A DNA stretch of 64,000 nt from assembly GCF_014224355.1 (NCBI RefSeq), contig NZ_VNWP01000003.1, forward strand, positions 1 through 64,000, read 5' to 3'. The DNA is from Synechococcus sp. BSA11S. Its GTDB lineage: Bacteria; Cyanobacteriota; Cyanobacteriia; PCC-6307; Cyanobiaceae. The notes beneath the pieces were generated by a model. It saw nothing but the letters and a program-made list of their open reading frames with translations, did no database searches and was not told the DNA's origin. The translations under genes were made by a program, and so were the position numbers. This document shows positions 7,443 through 60,536 of this stretch, in pieces. Every line of letters starts with the position of its first letter. Positions within the stretch are counted from its first letter, which is position 1.

Positions 7443-8369
7443 ATGACAGCCTCCACCCTCAAGCCCCGCGAACAGCGGCGGCGGGGGAGCGATCCGATCA
7501 GCTGGTATCTGGGCACGATCGGACGGGTGCCCCTGCTCACGCCTGCCGAGGAGATCGAACTGGGCAACCAGGTGCAGGCCATGATGCAGCTGCTGGAAGC
7601 CGGGGTGCCGGATCCACCTCTCGTGCGCCAGCGACAGTTGCTGCGCCTGGGTCGTCGCGCCAAGGAGCGCATGATGAAGGCCAATCTTCGCCTCGTGGTC
7701 AGCGTGGCCAAGAAGTACCAGGGCAAAGGCCTTGAACTTCTGGATCTGATTCAGGAAGGATCACTCGGACTGGAGCGGGCGGTCGAAAAGTTCGATCCCA
7801 CCCGCGGCTACAAGTTCTCCACCTATGCCTTCTGGTGGATCCGCCAGAGCATGACCCGGGCGATCGCCTGCCAGTCGCGCACGATCCGCCTGCCGGTGCA
7901 TCTGAGCGAGCGCCTCAGCGCCGTACGCCGGGTGAGCCTGGAGCTGGCCCACAAGCTCGGGGCCATGCCCAGCCGCAGCGAGATCGCCGAGGCCATGGCG
8001 ATTCCGATCGAGGAGCTCGATGGGCTGTTGCGCCAGTCGCTGACCACCTCCAGCCTGGATGCGCCGGTGAATGGCGAGGAAGGGCGCAGCTTCCTCGGTG
8101 ATCTGATCGCCGATTCCAGCCACGAGGAGCCCCTTGATCAGGTGGAACGGGGCATGCACCACGAGCAGCTGGAGCGCTGGCTGAGCCACCTCAGCGACCA
8201 GGAACGCCAGGTGCTTGCCCTGCGCTTCGGGCTGGATGGCCGGGAGCGCAACACCCTGGCTGAAATCGGTCGGCAACTGAAGGTGTCCCGCGAGCGGGTG
8301 CGCCAGGTGGAGCTCAAGGCGCTGCGCAAGCTGCGCGGCCTCACCAGCCGCCTGCCCAGCCAGCTCTGA
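7443..8369 (+). CDS. RNA polymerase sigma factor, group 2 (SigB/SigD-like)
   Basis: A 308-aa sigma-70-family factor lacking the long region 1.1 of the principal sigma. Region 1.2 is at residues about 18-45 (PISWYLGTIGRVPLLT). Region 2 is LELLDLIQEGSLGLERAV to KFSTYAFWWIRQSMTRAI, region 3 follows, and region 4 ends with a helix-turn-helix in LAEIGRQLKVSRERVRQVE. Near identity of region 2 to RpoD indicates recognition of standard -10 elements, as for group 2 factors used by cyanobacteria in stress and stationary phase. Which paralogue it is cannot be decided without a tree. The 98-base upstream gap contains a small perfect hairpin (AACCTT/AAGGTT, 7365-7378), possibly part of its control region or the end of nnr. 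Confidence 0.93.
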   Translation: MTASTLKPREQRRRGSDPISWYLGTIGRVPLLTPAEEIELGNQVQAMMQLLEAGVPDPPLVRQRQLLRLGRRAKERMMKANLRLVVSVAKKYQGKGLELLDLIQEGSLGLERAVEKFDPTRGYKFSTYAFWWIRQSMTRAIACQSRTIRLPVHLSERLSAVRRVSLELAHKLGAMPSRSEIAEAMAIPIEELDGLLRQSLTTSSLDAPVNGEEGRSFLGDLIADSSHEEPLDQVERGMHHEQLERWLSHLSDQERQVLALRFGLDGRERNTLAEIGRQLKVSRERVRQVELKALRKLRGLTSRLPSQL

Positions 8370-8387
8370 CTCCCACCCCGGGCGGGG

Positions 8388-9479
8388 TCAGTCCTCAGCC
8401 CAGATGTAGCGGGTGAGTTCGCCAGGATCGGGCTCGGGGGCGCCGACGGCGAACTCCACGGCATCGGCCACTTCGGCGTCGATCTCCTTCTCGATCGCCT
8501 TCAGCTCCTCAGCGGTGGCCAGTCCGTGGGTGGTGAGATGGGCCGCCAGTGCCTTGAGCGGATCCCGCTTGGCCCAGAACTCCTTCTCCACTTCGCTGCG
8601 CAGCTCGTCGGGATCGGCCAGGGAATGGCCACGGAAGCGGTAGGTGAGGCATTCCAGCAGGGTGGGACCCTCACCGGCCCGGGCCCGCTCCACGGCGCGC
8701 TGGGCGGCGGCGCGCACCGCCAGCACATCCATGCCGTCGACCTCCTCACCCGCCATGCCGAAGGAGGCGGCCTTGCGCCAGATCTCCGGATCGCTGGTGG
8801 CCCGGTCGTGGGCCATGCCGATCGCCCATTTGTTGTTCTCGACGACGAACAGGATCGGCAACTTCCAGAGCGCCGCCATGTTCAGGCATTCGAAGAACTG
8901 TCCGTTGTTGCAGGTGCCGTCTCCGAAAAAGGCGGCGGTCACGGCGTCACTGTCGGCCTCGCCGAGGGCCTCACGCTTGTAGCGGCTGGTGAAGGCGGCA
9001 CCGAGGGCCACCGGAATGCCCTCACCGATGAAGGCATAGCCCCCGAGCAGATGGTGCTCACGGGAGAAGAGGTGCATCGATCCGCCACGCCCTTTGCTGC
9101 AGCCCGTGGCCTTGCCGAACAGCTCACTCATCACCTCCCGGGCCGGCACCCCGGCGCTGAGGGCATGCACGTGGTCGCGGTAGGTGCTGCAGAACCAGTC
9201 GTGCTGGGCCCGCATGGCCTTGATCACCCCTGTGGAGACGGCTTCCTGCCCGTTGTAGAGGTGAACGAAGCCGAACATCTTGCCCCGGTAGTACATCTCG
9301 GCGCACTTGTCTTCGAAGCGGCGACCCAGGGTCATGTCGCGGTAGAGGGTGAGGCCCTCATCGCGGCTCACGGTGGCCGGCCCGGCCGGGTAAAGCGCCG
9401 CCAGGCGTTCGGCATGGCTGCCGGCGGCAGCAGCCCCGTCGGCTGCCGGTTGGAGAGTGGCGGCGATCTCCTGAGTCAT
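8388..9479 (-). CDS. pdhA: Pyruvate dehydrogenase E1 component, alpha subunit
   Basis: E1-alpha and E1-beta oxidatively decarboxylate pyruvate with thiamine diphosphate and load acetyl groups on E2. The ThDP motif runs from [14 protein letters not shown] to [22 protein letters not shown] and [13 protein letters not shown] (regulatory-loop equivalent) are clear. Length from ATG 9479 is 363 aa. An upstream in-frame ATG at 9506 would add nine residues with no conservation. The gene converges on the sigma-factor gene; a GC-rich hairpin (CTGAC...GTCAG, 8366-8391) spans both ends but has no T-run. It is divergent from the Ftn2 gene. The beta-subunit gene is not in the window, which is usual in cyanobacteria. 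Confidence 0.95.
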
Positions 9480-9603
9480 GGCAAGGGAGTCGGGGCTTTT
9501 GATCACGACTGTAGGGGGAGGGCCAGGCTGGAAAGGTCAAAACCGATGCCACTGCCTACACTCGCCCCAACACCCAGGATCAAGGGTCCGCGAGCTGCCG
9601 GGG

Positions 9604-11553
9604 TTGGAACTGCCGATCGACCACTTTCGTCTGCTCGGTGTGAGCCCGGCCAGCGATGCCCAGACCGTGCTGCGCACCCTGCAGCATCGGCTCGAGCGGG
9701 CACCGGACCAGGGCTTCACCCTGGAGACGATCCGGGCTCGCGCCGACCTGCTGGAGACCAGCGCCGACGTGCTCTCCGATTCGCAGCGCCGCCAGGCCTA
9801 CGAGGCCCAGCTGATGGCGATCGAACAGGGGGGTGAGGGCGAAGGGGTGGCGGCTGGCCTCGATGTCGCCCCGTCGAAGGAGATCGGCGGGCTTCTGCTG
9901 CTGCTGGAAGCCGGGCTGCCATCGGAGGCCTTCAAGGCCGCCTTCAACTGCCTGCAACCGCCCCAGGCTCCGGCCCTGGGCAGCGGCCGAGAGGCTGATC
10001 TCTGCCTGCTGGCCGCTCTGGCCTGCCGCGCCGCCGCCTCCGAGCTGCGCGACCAGCGCCATTACGAGGCCGCGGCCCATGCGCTGCAGCAGGGCATCCA
10101 GCTGCTGCAGCGCATGGGTCAGGTCCCTGATGAGCGGGTGAAGCTGGCGGGCGACCTGCACGGGCTGCTCCCCTTCCGCGTGCTCGGCCTGGTCAGCCGA
10201 CCGCTCACCGCCACTGCTGAACGAGCCGAAGGACTCGAGCTGCTCGAGAGTCTGGTGAAGCGCCGCGGAGGACTGGAGGGCCAGCAGGACCCCAGCCTGC
10301 CCCAGGAGGACTTTCAGGCCTTCATGAAGCAGATCCGGCTCTTTCTCACCGTCCAGGAGCAGGTGGATCTGTTCGGCCGCTGGGCCGAAAACGGATCGGA
10401 GGCCGCGGGGTTCCTGGCGAGCTGCGCCCTCACCGCCTCAGGCTTCGCCCAGCGCAAGCCCGAGCGCATCGCCGCCGCCCAGACCCGCCTGCAGGCCCTG
10501 GGCCAGCCTGGTGTCGAGCCCCTGCTGGCCTGCCTGCATCTCCTGCTCGGCCAGATCGAGCAGGCCCTGGACCGTTTCGGTTCCGCAGCGGCTCCGGAGC
10601 TGAAGGCCTGGGCCGCGGAGCAGTCCGACGACCCCCTGGCCCAGCTCTGCTCCTACTGCCGCGACTGGCTGAGCCGCGACGTGCTCCCCGGTTACCGCGA
10701 CATCGAGGTGGATGCCGATCTCGATGCCTACTTCGCCGATCGGGATGTGCAGGCCTTCGTCGAGCAGCAGGATCGCCGCCAGGCCCGCGGCCAGGCCGGC
10801 GACTTGAAAGCCATCGATCCCCTCGCCGCGGGGGACGCCGCCTGGGCGCGACCCGAGCTCGACCTCGAAAGCAGCCTCCCGCCACCCCCCTGGATCGACC
10901 CCGGGGCCACCGAAACGGCTGAGCCTCTCCGTCCTCCTGATCAGGGGCAGGCCAGAGGAGAGCAGGCCAGTCAGCCCCGGCCCCGGTCCACCAGGCCGAA
11001 GGCCGTGCTCTGGATCGCGCTGGCGGCCGGGATCGCCCTGATCGCCGGCCTCTGGCTGCTGAGGCGTCCCCGGCCTGAGGCCGCCCCGCAGCCGCCACCG
11101 CCCGTCAGCAGCCAGGCCCCCAGCCCAAGCCCACCGGCACCCCCGCAGACTGCCGCCCCGGTCCCCCTCACCAGCGCCAACCCCAGCCAGGACGATGTGC
11201 GCCGTCTGCTGGAGAGCTGGCTGGCGGCCAAGGCGGCGCTGCTGGATGGGCGTTCCACGGCCGCCGACCTCGATCAGCTGGCCCGCCCGGCCCTGGTGCG
11301 TGAGCTGCGCTCCCAGGCCCGCAGGCTGGAAGCCAGAGGCCAGCGCCAGAAGATGGAGGCCACGATCCGGCAGTTCTCGCTCACCGACCGGAGCCCGCGG
11401 CGGATCGAGGCCGATGTGCAGCTCGACTACAGCGAGGAGATCCGCTCAGGCGACAAGGTGATCGAGCCCAGGACCAGCGCCGACCTGCGCAACATCTACG
11501 TCTTCGGCCGCGACGGCGGCACCTGGAAACTGGCCGATTTCCGCCGACGCTGA
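9604..11553 (+). CDS. ftn2: Cyanobacterial cell-division protein Ftn2/ZipN (ARC6 homologue)
   Basis: The N-terminus LPIDHFRLLGVSPASD is the J-domain-like start of Ftn2/ZipN, the cyanobacterial ancestor of plastid ARC6, which tethers FtsZ to the inner membrane. A long alpha-helical, TPR-like region follows. One membrane helix (VLWIALAAGIALIAGLWLL) sits around residue 475 and is preceded by a basic stretch and followed by a proline-rich linker. The C-terminal about 120 residues match the IMS/ARC6-type domain (LDQLARPALVRELRSQARRL to the end). I chose TTG 9604 because homologues begin almost exactly there; the upstream open frame to 9478 shows no conservation. That gives 649 aa. It is transcribed away from pdhA, with ffh following after 90 bases. 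Confidence 0.88.
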   Translation: MELPIDHFRLLGVSPASDAQTVLRTLQHRLERAPDQGFTLETIRARADLLETSADVLSDSQRRQAYEAQLMAIEQGGEGEGVAAGLDVAPSKEIGGLLLLLEAGLPSEAFKAAFNCLQPPQAPALGSGREADLCLLAALACRAAASELRDQRHYEAAAHALQQGIQLLQRMGQVPDERVKLAGDLHGLLPFRVLGLVSRPLTATAERAEGLELLESLVKRRGGLEGQQDPSLPQEDFQAFMKQIRLFLTVQEQVDLFGRWAENGSEAAGFLASCALTASGFAQRKPERIAAAQTRLQALGQPGVEPLLACLHLLLGQIEQALDRFGSAAAPELKAWAAEQSDDPLAQLCSYCRDWLSRDVLPGYRDIEVDADLDAYFADRDVQAFVEQQDRRQARGQAGDLKAIDPLAAGDAAWARPELDLESSLPPPPWIDPGATETAEPLRPPDQGQARGEQASQPRPRSTRPKAVLWIALAAGIALIAGLWLLRRPRPEAAPQPPPPVSSQAPSPSPPAPPQTAAPVPLTSANPSQDDVRRLLESWLAAKAALLDGRSTAADLDQLARPALVRELRSQARRLEARGQRQKMEATIRQFSLTDRSPRRIEADVQLDYSEEIRSGDKVIEPRTSADLRNIYVFGRDGGTWKLADFRRR

Positions 11554-52419: not shown

Positions 52420-52587
52420 GCATTCCAGCTGAGCCGCAGGCCACGGGACGGCATGGCGGCAGCTGCATGGGTCTGAGCCAGGTCCTGGCTGACACCTACG
52501 TGCTGTACTGCAAGACCCATGGCTTTCACTGGACTATGACGGGCCCCATGTTCACGTCTCTCCCTGCTCTGCTCATGGAGCAGTACA
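52420..52587 (+). pseudogene. Remnant of a Dps-type ferritin-like gene
   Basis: The frame reads IPAE near 52,422, a scrambled stretch, then MGLSQVLADTYVLYCKTHGF and HWTMTGPMFTSLPALLMEQY, the first helix of Dps with the His and Trp of the ferroxidase site. After that all similarity ends. Only about a third of a Dps protein remains, so it cannot be functional. Confidence 0.7.
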
Positions 52588-53287
52588 TTGCGTCGCTTCA
52601 AAATGCTGGCCGAAGCGGCAAGTCTGATCCACTGCACGAGCCAGGAAGCCATCCACTTTTTTGGTGCTACTGATCCCACAGTGATCCATGGGCAACTGGC
52701 GAATCGTCCGTCGGTTTTTGTTGCTGATTCCTCCGGAGTGATCCAATGGTGCTTCGGTGGCCGTCATGGGCAACTTTCTCTCAACGCCGAAGACCATGGG
52801 GGAATGTCTCGCAATGTCTCGCAACGACTTTCTCGCCGCTGTCCTTGATGGCCTTTGCGGTCAGCCCGATCTGATCGGCACTCAGGCCTCCGGTGGGGCG
52901 GGTATCGCCAACCCATCGCAGTTGGATGACCTGCTGGGATTCGCCTCGGCCTATGCCTTGAGCGGTCATCCTCTCTCCGCCAACCGTCGTCTCTGAAACC
53001 GAGGGGCAGCAACTTGATCAATTCCCCAATGCTGCCGTCGATGAACAAGGAAGCGGAGTCGAACTGACTGCCCTGGCAAGATGGACCCATCGATCTGGTG
53101 AAGAGACTGTATGGACCGAAGACCCAGACTCACTCAATCCTGCCAACCGGAGCAGGCGTCTTGCGTCCGCCGGGCCTGACGCCAGGTGCAATAGGTCAGT
53201 GGGTGGATGTGGTGAGCTCAAGCTGATCGCATCAAGGGCGCTCAGAATGGGCCAAGGCACCCAGGCCCAGGATTCTCCGCAGAACGA
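52588..53287. other. Degraded sequence, no intact gene
   Basis: Several short frames follow the dps remnant. One (from about 52,588) includes VIHGQLANRPSVFVADSSGV, reminiscent of the C-terminal part of a peroxiredoxin (a conserved xPxxFVIDxxGxI pattern). Another (52,757-52,996) ends LDDLLGFASAYALSGHPLS. Neither has a convincing start or full domain. I regard the stretch as gene debris. Confidence 0.5.
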
Positions 53288-53290
53288 GTG

Positions 53291-54841
53291 ATGACAGCAC
53301 CGACGGTTGCCGCCAGTACGCCCATCGCCGTCAACCTGGAGGAGGGAAAGGAGTACTACTACTGCGCCTGCGGCCGCTCCTCGGATCAGCCGTTCTGCGA
53401 CGGATCCCACAAGGGCAGCAGCTTCTCACCCCTGGCCTTCGTGGCCAAAGAAAGCGGCAAGGCTCTGCTCTGTCGCTGCAAGCAGACCGCCACACCTCCC
53501 TACTGCGACGGCACCCATGCCCGTGTTCCCGCCGACCAGGTGGGCTCCGACTTTGCCGTGGACGAAGACAGTGCTGAAGTCGGAATGACCGAGGGGACGG
53601 AAGAGGAGCCCAACCTTGGGCTGATCCACGAGCTAGCCGAGCACGGCCTCAAGTGGATGGGGGCCCAGGGGCCAGTGGTGTCCATGGGGGTGCCCCGCTC
53701 CCAGCTGCCCCTCTGGGATGACATCCAGATCCTCACGGCCCAGCTGGCGCGGCGACCCCTGGCCGAATCCGCCCCGGTGGGCACGGAGCTGGTGATCGGT
53801 CCCCGGGCCCGGCGCCCGCTGCGGCTGGAGATCCCTCTTCTGGTGTCGGACATGAGCTTTGGGGCCCTCTCCGAGGAGGCCAAGCGGGCCCTGGCCACAG
53901 GCGCGGAGCTGGCCGGTACGGGCATCTGCTCCGGCGAGGGGGGGATGCTGAGCGAGGAGCAGGCCGCCAACCACCGCTACCTCTACGAACTCGCGCCGGC
54001 GATGTTCGGCTATCGCGAAGACCTTCTCTCCCGGGTGCAGGCCTTTCACTTCAAGGCTGGTCAGGCGGCCAAGACCGGCACGGGCGGTCATCTGCCCGGT
54101 GCCAAGGTCACCGCCCGCATCGCCAGGCTCCGAGGCATCCCCGAAGGACAGCCCGCCTGTTCTCCCGCCAGCTTCGAAGATCTGCGCACCCCGGCCGATT
54201 TCCGCCGCTTCGGCGATCGGGTGCGGGAGCTCAGCGGCGGCATTCCGGTGGGCTTCAAGCTGAGCGCCCAGCACATCGAGCAGGATCTCGATTTCGCTCT
54301 CGAGGCCGGGGCCGACTATCTGATCCTCGATGGCCGCGGCGGCGGCACAGGTGGGGCCCCCCAGCTGCTCCGTGATCACATCACCATGCCCACCATTCCC
54401 GCGCTTGTCAGGGCCAGGGCCCATCTCGACCGACGCGGCGCCAGCGCACAGGTGTCCCTGATCGTGACGGGCGGCCTGCGCACCCCGGCAGACTGCGTCA
54501 AGGCGCTGGCCCTGGGGGCCGACGGGATCGCCCTGGCCAATGCCGCAATCCAGGCCATCGGCTGCGTCGGCTCCCGGATCTGCCACACCAACCGCTGCCC
54601 GACGGGGATAGCCACCCAGGATCCAGAGCTGCGCCGCCACCTTCAGGTGGAGCCTGCCGCCCAGCGCCTGGATCGTTTCTTCCGGGCCACGGTGGCGTTG
54701 ATGCAGGTGATGGCGCGGTGCTGCGGCCATGACCACCTGAACCGCATGAACCGGGACGACCTGGCCAGCTGGCAACGGGACCTGGCGGAGCTGGCCAGCA
54801 TCGCCTGGAGCGGTGCTGGGGCAGCCACGGAACAGCCATGA
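53291..54841 (+). CDS. Two CDGSH iron-sulfur domains fused to an FMN-binding glutamate-synthase domain
   Basis: 516 aa from ATG 53291 (GTG 53288 possible). Residues about 20-60 and 65-90 each hold a CDGSH-type site: CACGRSSDQPFCDGSH and CRCKQTATPPYCDGTH. From residue about 130 the protein is the glutamate-synthase-type FMN barrel: LLVSDMSFGALSEEAKRAL, GEGGMLSEEQAANHRYLY, YLILDGRGGGTGGAPQLL, and the [3Fe-4S] cysteines in GCVGSRICHTNRCPTGIATQ. No glutaminase domain and no FAD domain are present. Likely an iron-sulfur flavoenzyme that takes electrons through the CDGSH clusters or ferredoxin, with substrate unknown. Its stop is 46 bases from the convergent MscS gene. Confidence 0.88.
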   Translation: MTAPTVAASTPIAVNLEEGKEYYYCACGRSSDQPFCDGSHKGSSFSPLAFVAKESGKALLCRCKQTATPPYCDGTHARVPADQVGSDFAVDEDSAEVGMTEGTEEEPNLGLIHELAEHGLKWMGAQGPVVSMGVPRSQLPLWDDIQILTAQLARRPLAESAPVGTELVIGPRARRPLRLEIPLLVSDMSFGALSEEAKRALATGAELAGTGICSGEGGMLSEEQAANHRYLYELAPAMFGYREDLLSRVQAFHFKAGQAAKTGTGGHLPGAKVTARIARLRGIPEGQPACSPASFEDLRTPADFRRFGDRVRELSGGIPVGFKLSAQHIEQDLDFALEAGADYLILDGRGGGTGGAPQLLRDHITMPTIPALVRARAHLDRRGASAQVSLIVTGGLRTPADCVKALALGADGIALANAAIQAIGCVGSRICHTNRCPTGIATQDPELRRHLQVEPAAQRLDRFFRATVALMQVMARCCGHDHLNRMNRDDLASWQRDLAELASIAWSGAGAATEQP

Positions 54842-56965: not shown

Positions 56966-57934
56966 TCATTCTCTCTGACGAAGAGCCTCGAAACCAGAGA
57001 CGATGTCGAGCAGTTCACCGGTGATTGCATTCTGCCGCTGCTGACGATGCAGGGCATTCAGTTCACTGAGGCGCTCATCAATGTGTTCTCCTGCAGCATG
57101 CATGGCCGTAAGGCGCGCAGCATTCTCGCTGGCCAGCGACTCCACCGCGGCCCGGAACAGGCAGAGGTGGAGGTACTCCTGCACGATGCCCGCGAACAGC
57201 CCTGGAAGCGGCTGGTTGTTCATCGGCTCACCGCACGAGCCCCAGGCGCGCCACTGCAGCCCCCCAAGCCAGGAGGGATCAAGGGGCAGGAGCTGCAACG
57301 CCGAGGGCTGATGGGTCGTGGCAGTCAGAACCCTCTGGTACACAAGCAAGATCCGACCGACACCGGCGCTGGTGTGCTCTGGATCGCTCCATGCGGGGTC
57401 GGTCTTCATCGCCCCGGCAACAGAATCCGGGAAACGCCAGCCTTCAATCAACGGGAGGAGTTCCTGAAGCAGGACTGAAATCACCGCCACCGAACTGGGC
57501 AGCGAAAAACGTGCCTCAACCGGCAGAGGGCCACCCTCCAGAAGGGTGGCAAGGCGGTCTCCGACCACTGCCATCCTGCATCGCTCATGGGCGATGCCTC
57601 GGCGCCGCAGCTGCTCAACCGTGAAGGTGACGATCTGCTCGTTGAACGGACCGCAGAGTCCGTGACTGGATCCATAAAGAATCACACCCACATCCCCAGG
57701 AGCGGTGGGAGAGGGCAACAGTGAAGAAAGGGAAGCAGGAGCGGCATCGAAGCGCTGCAACCGGAGCACAGCCTGCAGGGCCAGCTCCACACTGGCGGTA
57801 TAAGCAACGAGTGATTCACTGGCCAACTGATACTGACGCGTCCCCGCCATCGCCAGTGCCTTCATGGTTCGAACGACCGACTGCAGTTCCTGCGTTGTAC
57901 GGATCGTGGCTCGCAACTCCTCAAGCGTCTGCAT
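56966..57934 (-). CDS. atpG: N-type ATPase gamma subunit
   Basis: 322 aa. The N-terminal helix LRATIRTTQELQSVVRTMKA and C-terminal helix LHRQQRQNAITGELLDIVSG are the rotor shaft; GVILYGSSHGLCGPFNEQIV is the conserved central strand region (usual SDRGLCG). It is longer than a typical gamma and divergent in the middle, as in N-type complexes. Last gene of the operon, five bases after atpA. Confidence 0.92.
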   Translation of the reverse strand: MQTLEELRATIRTTQELQSVVRTMKALAMAGTRQYQLASESLVAYTASVELALQAVLRLQRFDAAPASLSSLLPSPTAPGDVGVILYGSSHGLCGPFNEQIVTFTVEQLRRRGIAHERCRMAVVGDRLATLLEGGPLPVEARFSLPSSVAVISVLLQELLPLIEGWRFPDSVAGAMKTDPAWSDPEHTSAGVGRILLVYQRVLTATTHQPSALQLLPLDPSWLGGLQWRAWGSCGEPMNNQPLPGLFAGIVQEYLHLCLFRAAVESLASENAARLTAMHAAGEHIDERLSELNALHRQQRQNAITGELLDIVSGFEALRQRE

Positions 57935-57939
57935 GGGTG

Positions 57940-59496
57940 TTACGCGTTGTCGTCGTCGGCAAGGGCGGCGGCGATGCTGCCGCTGAGCGCCTCACGATCC
58001 TCCACCGAGAGGGGCTTGCCGTCTTCGATCCTCTGGTAAAGGGAGGCCAGCTCCCGCCGCACATGGCTCAGGATACTCGCTTCCTCAGACTCCAGACTCA
58101 TCTCTGGTAGCTCGTCGAAGAGACCTGAATCCGTACCAAACAACATCGTGACCTGCTCAGGCACCGACAAGGGGTTGTGCAGTCCCTGCCTGAGTACGTC
58201 CCGGATGCGCCGACCCCGCCGCAAGACATCGCGGGTGCCGGAATCAAGCTGGGTTCCAAAACGGGTGAAGAGTTCGATCTCCTGATACTGGGCATAGGCC
58301 AGGCGCAGACCAGGACTGATCTCCCGAAGGGCTGCGAGCTGGGTCCTTGAGCCGACACGCGAGACTGACCTGCCCACATCCACAGCTGGAAAGATTCCCT
58401 TTCGGAACAGATCAGAGGAGAGGTAGATCTGCCCATCGGTGATCGAAATCAGATTGGTAGGAACATAAGCCGAGATATTCTGAGCCTGGGTCTCGATGAT
58501 CGGCAACGCAGTCAGAGATCCCCCTCCGAGGGCAGGGGAGAGGTGAGTCGCCCGCTCCAGCAAGCGCGAGTGCAGATAGAAGATATCTCCAGGATAGGCT
58601 TCACGCCCGGGCGTTCGCCGCAGCAGAAGGGAGAGCTCCCGATAGGTGCGGGCGTGATGCGTGAGATCGTCATAGACAATCAGCACATCACGCCCCATCT
58701 CCATGAAGTACTCGCCCATGGTGGTGGCAGCATAGGGGGTAACATATTGCAACCCAGGCGAATCCTGGCCAGAGGCAACAACCACGATGCTGTACTCCAT
58801 CGCGCCATAGTCCGAGAGAGTCGCGATCACATTTGCAATCGAGGCTGAACGCTGTCCGATCGCGCAGTAGATACAGACGACGTTTTTATCCTTCTGATTC
58901 AGAATCGTATCGACTGCCAGAAGCGTTTTACCGGTCTGGCGATCTCCGATAATGAGCTCCCGTTGGCCTCGGCCAATCGGAATCAGGGCATCAACAACCT
59001 TCCATCCGGTCTGAAGGGGCACCGTGACTGCAGCCCGCTCCAGGATGGCCGGAGCTTCACGCTCAATCGGGCGCATCGTGCTGAACGAGACATCACCCAA
59101 TCCATCGAGGGGTTCACCCAGGGCGGTGATCGTGCGGCCCAGCAGACCATCACCAACCGGAACCTCCACCACCCGGCCGGTTCGAACGACCGGATCCCCG
59201 GCGCAGATGTGCTGGCTGTCCCCCAGCAGGACAACCCCCAGCTCCTCAGGATCGAGATTGAAGGCGATCCCAAGGATCGACGACGGGCCGGATTGCTGAT
59301 CCTCATACGAGAAGCTGACCAGTTCGTCAGACCGCACATTGGGAAGTCCACCCACTTGAGCGATGCCGCGTCGCACGGAAAGGGTGGCGCCGGTCTCCTG
59401 TACGGAAAGAGCTGGGCGGAACGCGTCGACGGAACAACTCAGCGAATCCAGCGCCCCGAGCAAAGCAGCCTCAAGCGGACGCTGTCGCTGAGTCAT
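57940..59496 (-). CDS. atpA: N-type ATPase alpha subunit
   Basis: 518 aa. P-loop [32 protein letters not shown], and the C-terminal helical domain are intact. The N-terminus is shorter and diverged from the photosynthetic F-type alpha. Its start overlaps atpF by 26 bases. It forms the catalytic hexamer with AtpD. Confidence 0.95.
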
Positions 59497-60265
59497 GAAG
59501 AGAACTGTTTTTCGGAAGGAGGGCCTGGGTCAGATGTCGATCGAGGTCGCCAAGGTACTGATCCAGCGTCCAGCGGATGGCCTTCCCTTCGATTCCCAGC
59601 TGGATGCCAATGGGGAAGAGGGGATCGTCGAGGAAGGTGACACGTCCGCTGCACGCGAGGGACTCAAGCACCTGATCAATCAGAAGCTGACGGAGCTCCC
59701 TTGGAAGGGGAAAGGAGGTTTGGACTTTGATTGGCCCATGGGCGGCCCCATCCATGGTCTGAATCGCGTCTCGCTCCAGGGGGTCAAGATGCTTGAGCCG
59801 ATCGATGAACACAGCCACGATCTGATGCTCCAGATCGATATTGGCGAGATCCTTCAGGGCCTTGCGTGCGATGAACTGACTCTCCAGAAGAACGCGCTGT
59901 TTCACTGTCTGGAGGGAGGCCTCCTTCTCCTCTTGAAGGGACTGATAGCTGAGCTGCCGTCGTTCCTCCACCTCAGTGCGCAGGCGAGCGAGCTGATCCA
60001 ACCGCTGCGCCTCCACCTCTGCATTGGCCTCAGCAAGGAGCTGCTGATGATGCGCTTCAAGATCGAGGAGGAGGGACTGCTGATGTTCCATATCCCGCTG
60101 GGCAGTCTGCTGGAACTCCTCAGCCTTATGGATATCGTGCCTGATTCGATCCTGACGTTGTCGAATCACACGGCGTATTGGATCATAGAGAACCCACCGA
60201 AGCAGCACGACAAGAAGCAGGAAATTAAAGATCTGGGCGGCAACGATAAACCAGTCAACAAGCAT
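59471..60265 (-). CDS. atpF: N-type ATPase b subunit with delta-like C-terminal region
   Basis: 264 aa from ATG 60265, about 100 longer than an ordinary b. An N-terminal membrane anchor ([20 protein letters not shown]) is followed by a long charged coiled coil. From residue about 165 the sequence becomes delta-like: [40 protein letters not shown], and [20 protein letters not shown], resembling the OSCP/delta C-terminal domain. No separate atpH occurs in the operon, so this protein probably serves as b plus delta in the peripheral stalk. An upstream extension to 60,370 overlaps atpE. Confidence 0.9.
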
Positions 60266-60266
60266 A

Positions 60267-60536
60267 TCAAAGCCCTTTAAAATAAATCCAGAATGGATTA
60301 ACGAAAACCAGGACCATCGCGACAACCAGGCAGTAAATGGCGGTGGATTCAACCATCGCCAGACCGACAAACAGGGTGCGGGTGATCACATTGGCCTTAT
60401 CAGGCTGCTGGGCCAAAGCTCCCAAAGCGCGTGCCACGGCCCAGCCCTCTCCCAGAGCAGGACCAATCGAGCCCACGGCCATCGTAAAGGCCGCTCCAGC
60501 GATGGAGGCCATTCCGATCAGGGCAAGGTCACTCAT
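60267..60536 (-). CDS. atpE: N-type ATPase c subunit (rotor ring)
   Basis: 89 aa, two-helix hairpin. The first helix has AVGSIGPALGEGWAVARALG, the polar loop is ALAQQPD, and the second helix carries the ion-binding VESTAIYCLVVAMVLVFVN. Glu-Ser-Thr and Tyr four residues on match the Na+-type site (E-S-T-x-x-Y), but the first-helix position that is Gln in classic Na+ rings is Glu here (PALGEG). It is one base from atpF and overlaps atpB by four. Confidence 0.94.
   Translation of the reverse strand: MSDLALIGMASIAGAAFTMAVGSIGPALGEGWAVARALGALAQQPDKANVITRTLFVGLAMVESTAIYCLVVAMVLVFVNPFWIYFKGL

Follow-up and report, generated by a model that had tools for sequence, protein, structure and literature searches.

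What do two CDGSH iron-sulfur sites do at the head of a flavin enzyme? The question is raised by a gene at positions 53291-54841 (+ strand) of the window, as we call the whole stretch of DNA analysed here, 64,000 nucleotides from Synechococcus sp. BSA11S (assembly GCF_014224355.1, contig NZ_VNWP01000003.1, positions 1 to 64,000). The product of this gene joins a tandem CDGSH (NEET) domain to a flavin mononucleotide (FMN)/[3Fe-4S] barrel related to that of glutamate synthase. For NEET proteins, cluster transfer, binding of nitric oxide (NO) and electron carriage are all possible roles (PMC9737848, PMC9490426). The comparison of related barrels gives a new result that bears on the choice: NEET, Rieske and rubredoxin modules interchange at the same end of the protein. 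As judged from sequence, this suggests that the CDGSH front end is an electron wire. The gene and its parts are the following:

53291..54841, + strand: type 5 CISD, a tandem CDGSH plus FMN/[3Fe-4S] glutamate-synthase-like protein of 516 amino acids (open frame; Pfam; full-length relatives)
53291..53545, + strand: NEET (tandem CDGSH) domain, residues 1-85 (Pfam PF09360 twice; phmmer to 3tbn; model confidence; selection)
53363..53410, + strand: first [2Fe-2S] site, C25, C27, C36, H40 (sequence; invariant in a 47-row alignment)
53471..53518, + strand: second [2Fe-2S] site, C61, C63, C72, H76 (sequence; C61, C72 and H76 invariant, C63 at least 90% conserved)
53546..53602, + strand: variable linker, residues 86-104, a probable flexible tether (low model confidence; fastest-changing part in 5/5 comparisons)
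53603..54820, + strand: FMN-binding TIM-barrel domain with [3Fe-4S] site, residues 105-510 (PF01645 at 174-472; structural match to 1ea0)
54329..54343, + strand: DGRGG signature, residues 347-351, with R349, common to CDGSH, Rieske and rubredoxin forms (R349 in 56/57 such rows, 0/27 others)
54563..54598, + strand: [3Fe-4S] motif C425-x5-C431-x4-C436 (sequence; the three cysteines in 57/57 such rows and in 3 GltB rows)

The interchange emerged when 172 family entries, among which some genes are counted under two locus ids, were sorted by motif: 123 carry CDGSH, 17 Rieske, 8 rubredoxin and 16 CxxCxxC motifs, and 8 have no motif. Rieske-headed, CDGSH-free homologues with 59-66% barrel identity are found in haloarchaea (L061, L062), in a cyanobacterium (L013) and in Pseudomonadota (L213-L221), and a Chloroflexota form with 43% identity (L153/L231) also bears a Rieske domain (E 4e-17). 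Pfam recognises the Rieske family PF00355 in L013, L061, L062, L213, L215, L217, L220 and L231; the remaining Rieske calls were made by the motif C-x-H ... C-x-x-H. More distant homologues (43-46% identity), L223-L229, are headed by rubredoxin according to their motif, confirmed by Pfam (Rubredoxin PF00301) in L224, L226 and L229, the last of which has two Rubredoxin stretches and thus a doubled module. The Monoglobus protein L063 has a short rubredoxin-like domain (PF21349, E 5.5e-5, below its cut-off). Archaeal-type relatives carry 4Fe-4S modules at the same end; in L236, one of the 16 CxxCxxC entries, Pfam identifies 4Fe-4S dicluster domains. Finally, L065 (5884-8019) is devoid of any N-terminal redox module and carries a C-terminal FGE-sulfatase domain. 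Rubredoxin has one iron atom bound by four cysteines, and what NEET, Rieske and rubredoxin modules share is one-electron transfer; their presence in the same slot therefore favours a relay. The preliminary description of the locus had suggested that the two CDGSH sites may relay electrons within the enzyme, and this comparison of homologous barrels strengthens the idea, in an indirect manner.

How closely these barrels are related was examined in a tree of 81 barrels, comprising 35 diverse CDGSH forms (the window protein included) taken from the 123 entries, 13 of the 17 Rieske forms (the four others being repeats) and 7 of the 16 forms with 4Fe-4S motifs (Fer4); the GltB-like fragment L034 was left out. 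The 35 CDGSH barrels, 12 Rieske barrels and L065 form one clade, with a Shimodaira-Hasegawa-like approximate likelihood ratio test (SH-aLRT) value of 99. The seven Pseudomonadota rubredoxin forms make up a separate clade (SH-aLRT 100), joined to the Chloroflexota form L153 (91), and L063 sits on a long branch whose place is unsure. The Fer4 group and two groups that we label Mgs-like and YerD-like stand apart. A single clade of all Rieske forms is rejected by the approximately unbiased (AU) test (p 0.0196, to be read with caution for the long branch of L153). R349, at the centre of the DGRGG signature, is present in 35/35 CDGSH, 13/13 Rieske and 7/8 rubredoxin rows and in L065 (1/1), and in none of the Fer4 (0/7), YerD-like (0/6), Mgs-like (0/11) or GltB rows (0/3, three of the eight GltB loci tried having given a usable row). 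H267, which we take to be Q978 of glutamate synthase (GltS), was also considered as a group mark and abandoned, the Fer4 rows carrying it as well (7/7). The rubredoxin forms thus share the DGRGG signature with the CDGSH forms and make no supported joint clade with them in this tree; for the barrels of the CDGSH, Rieske and L065 forms we claim shared descent and nothing further. The Mgs-like barrels differ in the layout of cysteines in the [3Fe-4S] region, where a cysteine is followed by a long insert and then mostly by CxxCHxGxCP (L015-L018, L037, L038, L155-L157, L160-L162, L164-L166, L230, L232-L235, L238-L240).

Are head and barrel made as one protein? The frame is open for 516 codons from its ATG, with a GTG one codon 5' of it. 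In the window protein, Pfam recognises two zf-CDGSH stretches (65.4 bits against a cut-off of 29.5, E 5.7e-18) and Glu_synthase PF01645 (297.3 bits against 20.4, E 2.3e-88), and finds no glutaminase, GXGXG or cytochrome b5 domain; the central domain PF04898 scores 14.6 bits, under its cut-off of 22.8, and FMN_dh passes its cut-off of 24.9 with 28.6 bits, in a match confined to residues 331-428. A phmmer search pairs residues 2-77 with 3tbn, a CDGSH protein of solved structure (E 4.9e-23), and parts of residues 184-491 with glutamate synthase large chains. The two CDGSH motifs, C25-H40 and C61-H76, lie in tandem, 20 residues apart. When the window protein is aligned with 46 relatives, C25, C27, C36, H40, C61, C72, H76, C425, C431 and C436 are invariant and C63 is conserved in at least 90% of the rows; the pairing of the domains is therefore not a matter of chance. 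The fusion to a GltB-like domain without glutaminase, as first read from the open frame, is borne out by all these data.

Against five close relatives, the ratio of nonsynonymous to synonymous substitution rates (dN/dS) ranges over 0.14-0.28 in residues 1-85, the NEET part, and over 0.21-0.23 in residues 105-510, the barrel, so that selection on the NEET part is about as strong as on the barrel. The linker (86-104) shows a dN above that of both other parts in all five comparisons. An AlphaFold model built from 47 sequences has a mean predicted local distance difference test (pLDDT) score of 88.5 and a predicted template modelling score (pTM) of 0.76, with pLDDT about 90 in the NEET part and below 50 at residues 93-98. 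Translation starting after residue 100, which would have left the CDGSH part out of the product, is unlikely because the ligands are conserved, the dN/dS of the NEET part is low and this part is modelled with high confidence.

The closest structural match of the model is the glutamate synthase large chain 1ea0 (Z 38.5, residues 124-504, 360 residues); alpha-hydroxyacid oxidases, flavocytochrome b2 and type 2 isopentenyl diphosphate (IPP) isomerases follow, tied at Z ~25-26. Like the glutamate synthase large chains (1ea0, 1ofd), the window protein has an FMN barrel with the [3Fe-4S] motif C-x5-C-x4-C. Unlike them, it lacks the glutaminase, central and beta-helix domains and possesses the DGRGG signature and the NEET head, residues 1-85 being CDGSH where glutamate synthase has an N-terminal glutaminase with Cys1. 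These missing domains, together with a full-length GltB frame of 1557 amino acids elsewhere in the same genome, led us to reject glutamate synthase as the family of this protein. Three further CDGSH-like places also occur elsewhere in the genome.

The architecture, which had been taken as unusual, turned out to have a name. Lin et al. called it type 5 CISD in 2011 and reported it in 32 bacterial species, their type 5 passages assigning it no function (PMC3174974); a phylogeny of 2018 shows Glu_synthase-bearing members in cyanobacteria and proteobacteria and suggests horizontal transfer (PMC5859297). The window protein has both features in identical architecture and is a further member of this class. 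In literature searches that covered mostly papers outside subscription, we found no paper reporting a tested function for a type 5 protein, or the interchange of modules. The search for the same architecture that had been suggested from the start yielded, in a contig scan, at least 80 loci, every one with CDGSH motifs, from phyla that include Verrucomicrobiota, Actinomycetota, Chloroflexota, Gemmatimonadota, Nitrospirota and Bdellovibrionota. Within the genus, six of the eight further genomes have a CDGSH form (one truncated at the end of its contig), as do 2 of 28 genomes from the other genera of the family (one broken) and four of 386 sampled from the phylum, its own genome counted; near full length, CDGSH forms occur in 28 of 398 Pseudomonadota genomes, four of these with an internal stop in the matched stretch. 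Some copies depart from the rule. L252 (G031) is a broken type 5 copy that lacks the stretch matching residues 290-398, L094 of Halomonas ventosae (8001-9848) has two tandem NEET pairs, or four CDGSH stretches by Pfam, and sites are altered in L066 (C63 to W) and in L112, L115 and L191 (motifs CDGCH, CDDTH and CDASH).

If the front end is a wire, in which direction do the electrons flow? The potentials of rubredoxins lie near 0 mV, and 4Fe-4S modules are usually low-potential. In flavocytochrome b2, which has no [3Fe-4S] cluster, the N-terminal b5 head accepts electrons from FMN, and this one-electron carrier is the electron exit. Flavocytochrome b2 (1lco, 1kbi) resembles the window protein in the fold of its FMN barrel (Z about 25) and differs from it in having heme b5 in place of Fe-S modules and only 18% identity in the structural alignment; since type 2 IPP isomerases match the structure equally well, we do not carry the likeness beyond analogy. 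The FMN of glutamate synthase has a potential of -240 mV and its [3Fe-4S] cluster one of -280 mV (PMC8097209); mitoNEET is at ~0 mV (PMC9737848) and is said to take electrons from FMNH2 and hand them to O2 or ubiquinone (PMC9490426). Because mitoNEET lies at ~0 mV and the FMN of GltS at -240 mV, electrons would be expected to leave the flavin. By analogy with these proteins, the data suggest that NEET, rubredoxin and probably Rieske heads suit electron exit better than entry.

A second line of comparison comes from the rubredoxin forms. In the order to which genome G790 belongs, 8 of 48 genomes have such a form at E 1e-100 (in G822 over residues 6-296 only). In five of the eight (L223, L224, L226, L229, L262), rubrerythrin, a peroxidase, is encoded directly upstream on the same strand; as for the three others, one has a contig edge there, one shows none in the 1.1 kb available and the third has none. 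With this rubrerythrin as query, tblastn hit only L223, L224, L226 and L229 among the loci searched with it, which include 79 CDGSH and 13 Rieske entries with at least 6 kb of sequence. In Clostridioides difficile, CD0828 is described as a 480-amino-acid protein made of rubredoxin and an FMN/[3Fe-4S] barrel, reducible by NADH and encoded in the rbr operon alongside perR and sor; its deletion lowers survival of H2O2 by 3-5 logs (PMC11980386). What is apparently the same gene is listed as upregulated in a PerR-defective strain (PMC11841134). As described, CD0828 resembles the window protein in its FMN barrel with C-x5-C-x4-C, in its N-terminal iron redox module and in a possibly mobile linker, and differs in having rubredoxin in the place of the NEET pair; the likeness is drawn from the published description. 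A stress role of the CDGSH form would be carried over, by analogy, from this rubredoxin branch.

From these comparisons we infer a direction, a substrate, an acceptor and a stress role for the CDGSH form. Type 5 CISD might be a tethered-wire flavin dehydrogenase of redox stress, with the NEET pair as its one-electron exit, and no glutamate synthase, a proposal that we put forward tentatively and to which we give slightly less than an even chance. A reduced substrate, most likely an amino acid or another amino or hydroxy acid, with NADH also possible, would give two electrons to FMN. These would exit singly, through [3Fe-4S] and the two NEET clusters, to a high-potential acceptor such as a peroxidase, a quinone or O2. 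Thanks to the flexible linker, the NEET head could move back and forth from the barrel to its partner, like the b5 head of flavocytochrome b2, and the likely role would be redox housekeeping in oxidative stress rather than glutamate synthesis. In a bolder version, rather unlikely as it stands, the chemistry of glutamate synthase would be reversed in a widespread group of FMN/[3Fe-4S] enzymes, an amino acid being oxidised, and an interchangeable high-potential plug, be it NEET pair, Rieske or rubredoxin, fitted to the partner of each lineage, would direct the electrons to the detoxification of peroxide, quinone or oxygen.

Several points weigh against the exit proposal. The potentials are those of related proteins (mitoNEET, GltS), with rubredoxin and Rieske values taken as general background. 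Residues E903, K972 and R992 of GltS, by what we take to be its numbering, are retained as E216, K261 and R281, so reductive amination is conceivable. In structure, hydroxyacid oxidases and flavocytochrome b2 score no better than type 2 IPP isomerases, in which electron exit plays no part. The kinship of CD0828 to the present proteins is judged from its described features, and its transfer of electrons to Rbr and Sor is slow, the authors doubting a donor role in their account (PMC11980386). A swap of NEET for Rieske within the CDGSH clade, seen in a quick tree, is unsupported: CDGSH forms could make up a single clade with L065, next to the Rieske forms, an arrangement that the AU test keeps (p 0.66) with a likelihood above that of the free tree. 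Finally, no neighbouring gene is conserved beside the CDGSH forms: of the 146 immediate neighbours scanned, at most five belong to any one family.

The same facts allow the current to be read the other way. The NEET pair could be an entry relay that takes electrons inward from ferredoxin or another donor, for the NH3-dependent synthesis of glutamate or another amino acid. The FMN/[3Fe-4S] fold and the key GltS residues are indeed retained, and the archaeal-type L236 has its 4Fe-4S dicluster domain at the same end. Inward flow would nevertheless be uphill (NEET ~0 mV against FMN -240 mV), the glutaminase, central and GXGXG domains are absent, and full-length GltB is also present in 5/5 genomes checked (its own and four others), which leaves this reading unlikely. 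Somewhat less likely still is a sensing role, in which labile NEET clusters would respond to O2, H2O2 or NO by turning the activity of the flavin enzyme on or off. Reduced mitoNEET does bind NO, after which its redox cycling stops (PMC9490426), and a Dps gene lies close to two Vibrio copies; a sensor gate fits poorly with conserved cluster ligands and with a slot that can hold rubredoxin, a simple electron carrier. That the NEET domain stores [2Fe-2S] units or passes them to the [3Fe-4S] site or to other proteins, as mitoNEET clusters can be transferred to apo-proteins (PMC9737848), is very improbable, given that rubredoxin, with one iron and no sulfide, is incapable of such transfer and yet replaces NEET. 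A NEET domain that merely stabilises or targets the protein would agree with the absence of a module from L065 and with the fact that we know of no activity of a CDGSH form, and is hardly credible in view of the ligands kept across the 47 rows, the purifying selection and the other redox modules that replace NEET in relatives.

A partner gene was also sought around the CDGSH forms. Of 154 immediate neighbours (simple open reading frame calls) of 80 loci, 146 were scanned and 8 omitted by hand; none qualified as an operon partner, the commonest family being Glyoxalase (5/146 at E 1e-5). In the 8 kb flanks of the 80 loci, LysR (10 loci), pirin-like (8), GST-like (5) and KatG-like (5) genes recur, named mostly by eye (two pirin and two LysR neighbours by Pfam); these uncontrolled counts were given no weight. 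A Ferric_reduct-Rieske membrane gene stands near four of nine Rieske-type Pseudomonadota loci (L215, L216, L219, L220), which belong to one clade, and was dismissed as a general partner of Rieske forms, being confined to these; L222, whose N-terminus is not in open frame, is outside the nine. At the same four loci the membrane gene is paired with that of a protein of ~255 amino acids that has no Pfam match in the three scanned.

In the window itself, 52464-52848 (+), just upstream of the gene, holds what is left of two genes, the first encoding a Dps-like ferritin (PF00210, E 7e-4, below the cut-off) and the second peroxiredoxin-like by eye, without a Pfam match; a relative of the latter adjoins the gene in L249. 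About 2 kb past the gene, 56966-60370 (-) encodes ATP synthase gamma, alpha and B and resembles, on inspection, an N-type ATPase cluster. The Rieske form L218 also has a gene for ATP synthase A beside it. A link to the adjacent ATP synthase genes was discarded: the window's gamma, alpha, MscS and DUF2254 proteins are absent (tblastn) from 11 gene-bearing cyanobacterial loci, three of them shorter than 13 kb (L244, L245, L253; the first two represent the same genome twice), where the sole neighbour match is a redoxin-like fragment in L249.

Through the interchange of modules, type 5 CISD, catalogued since 2011, gains an electron-wire hypothesis that specifies a direction and can be put to the test, and the interchange points to a putative relative with a stress phenotype, CD0828. 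The wire hypothesis would give the NEET clusters a defined electron partner, FMN, within one polypeptide, a partnership that agrees with the transfer of electrons from FMNH2 to mitoNEET in vitro.
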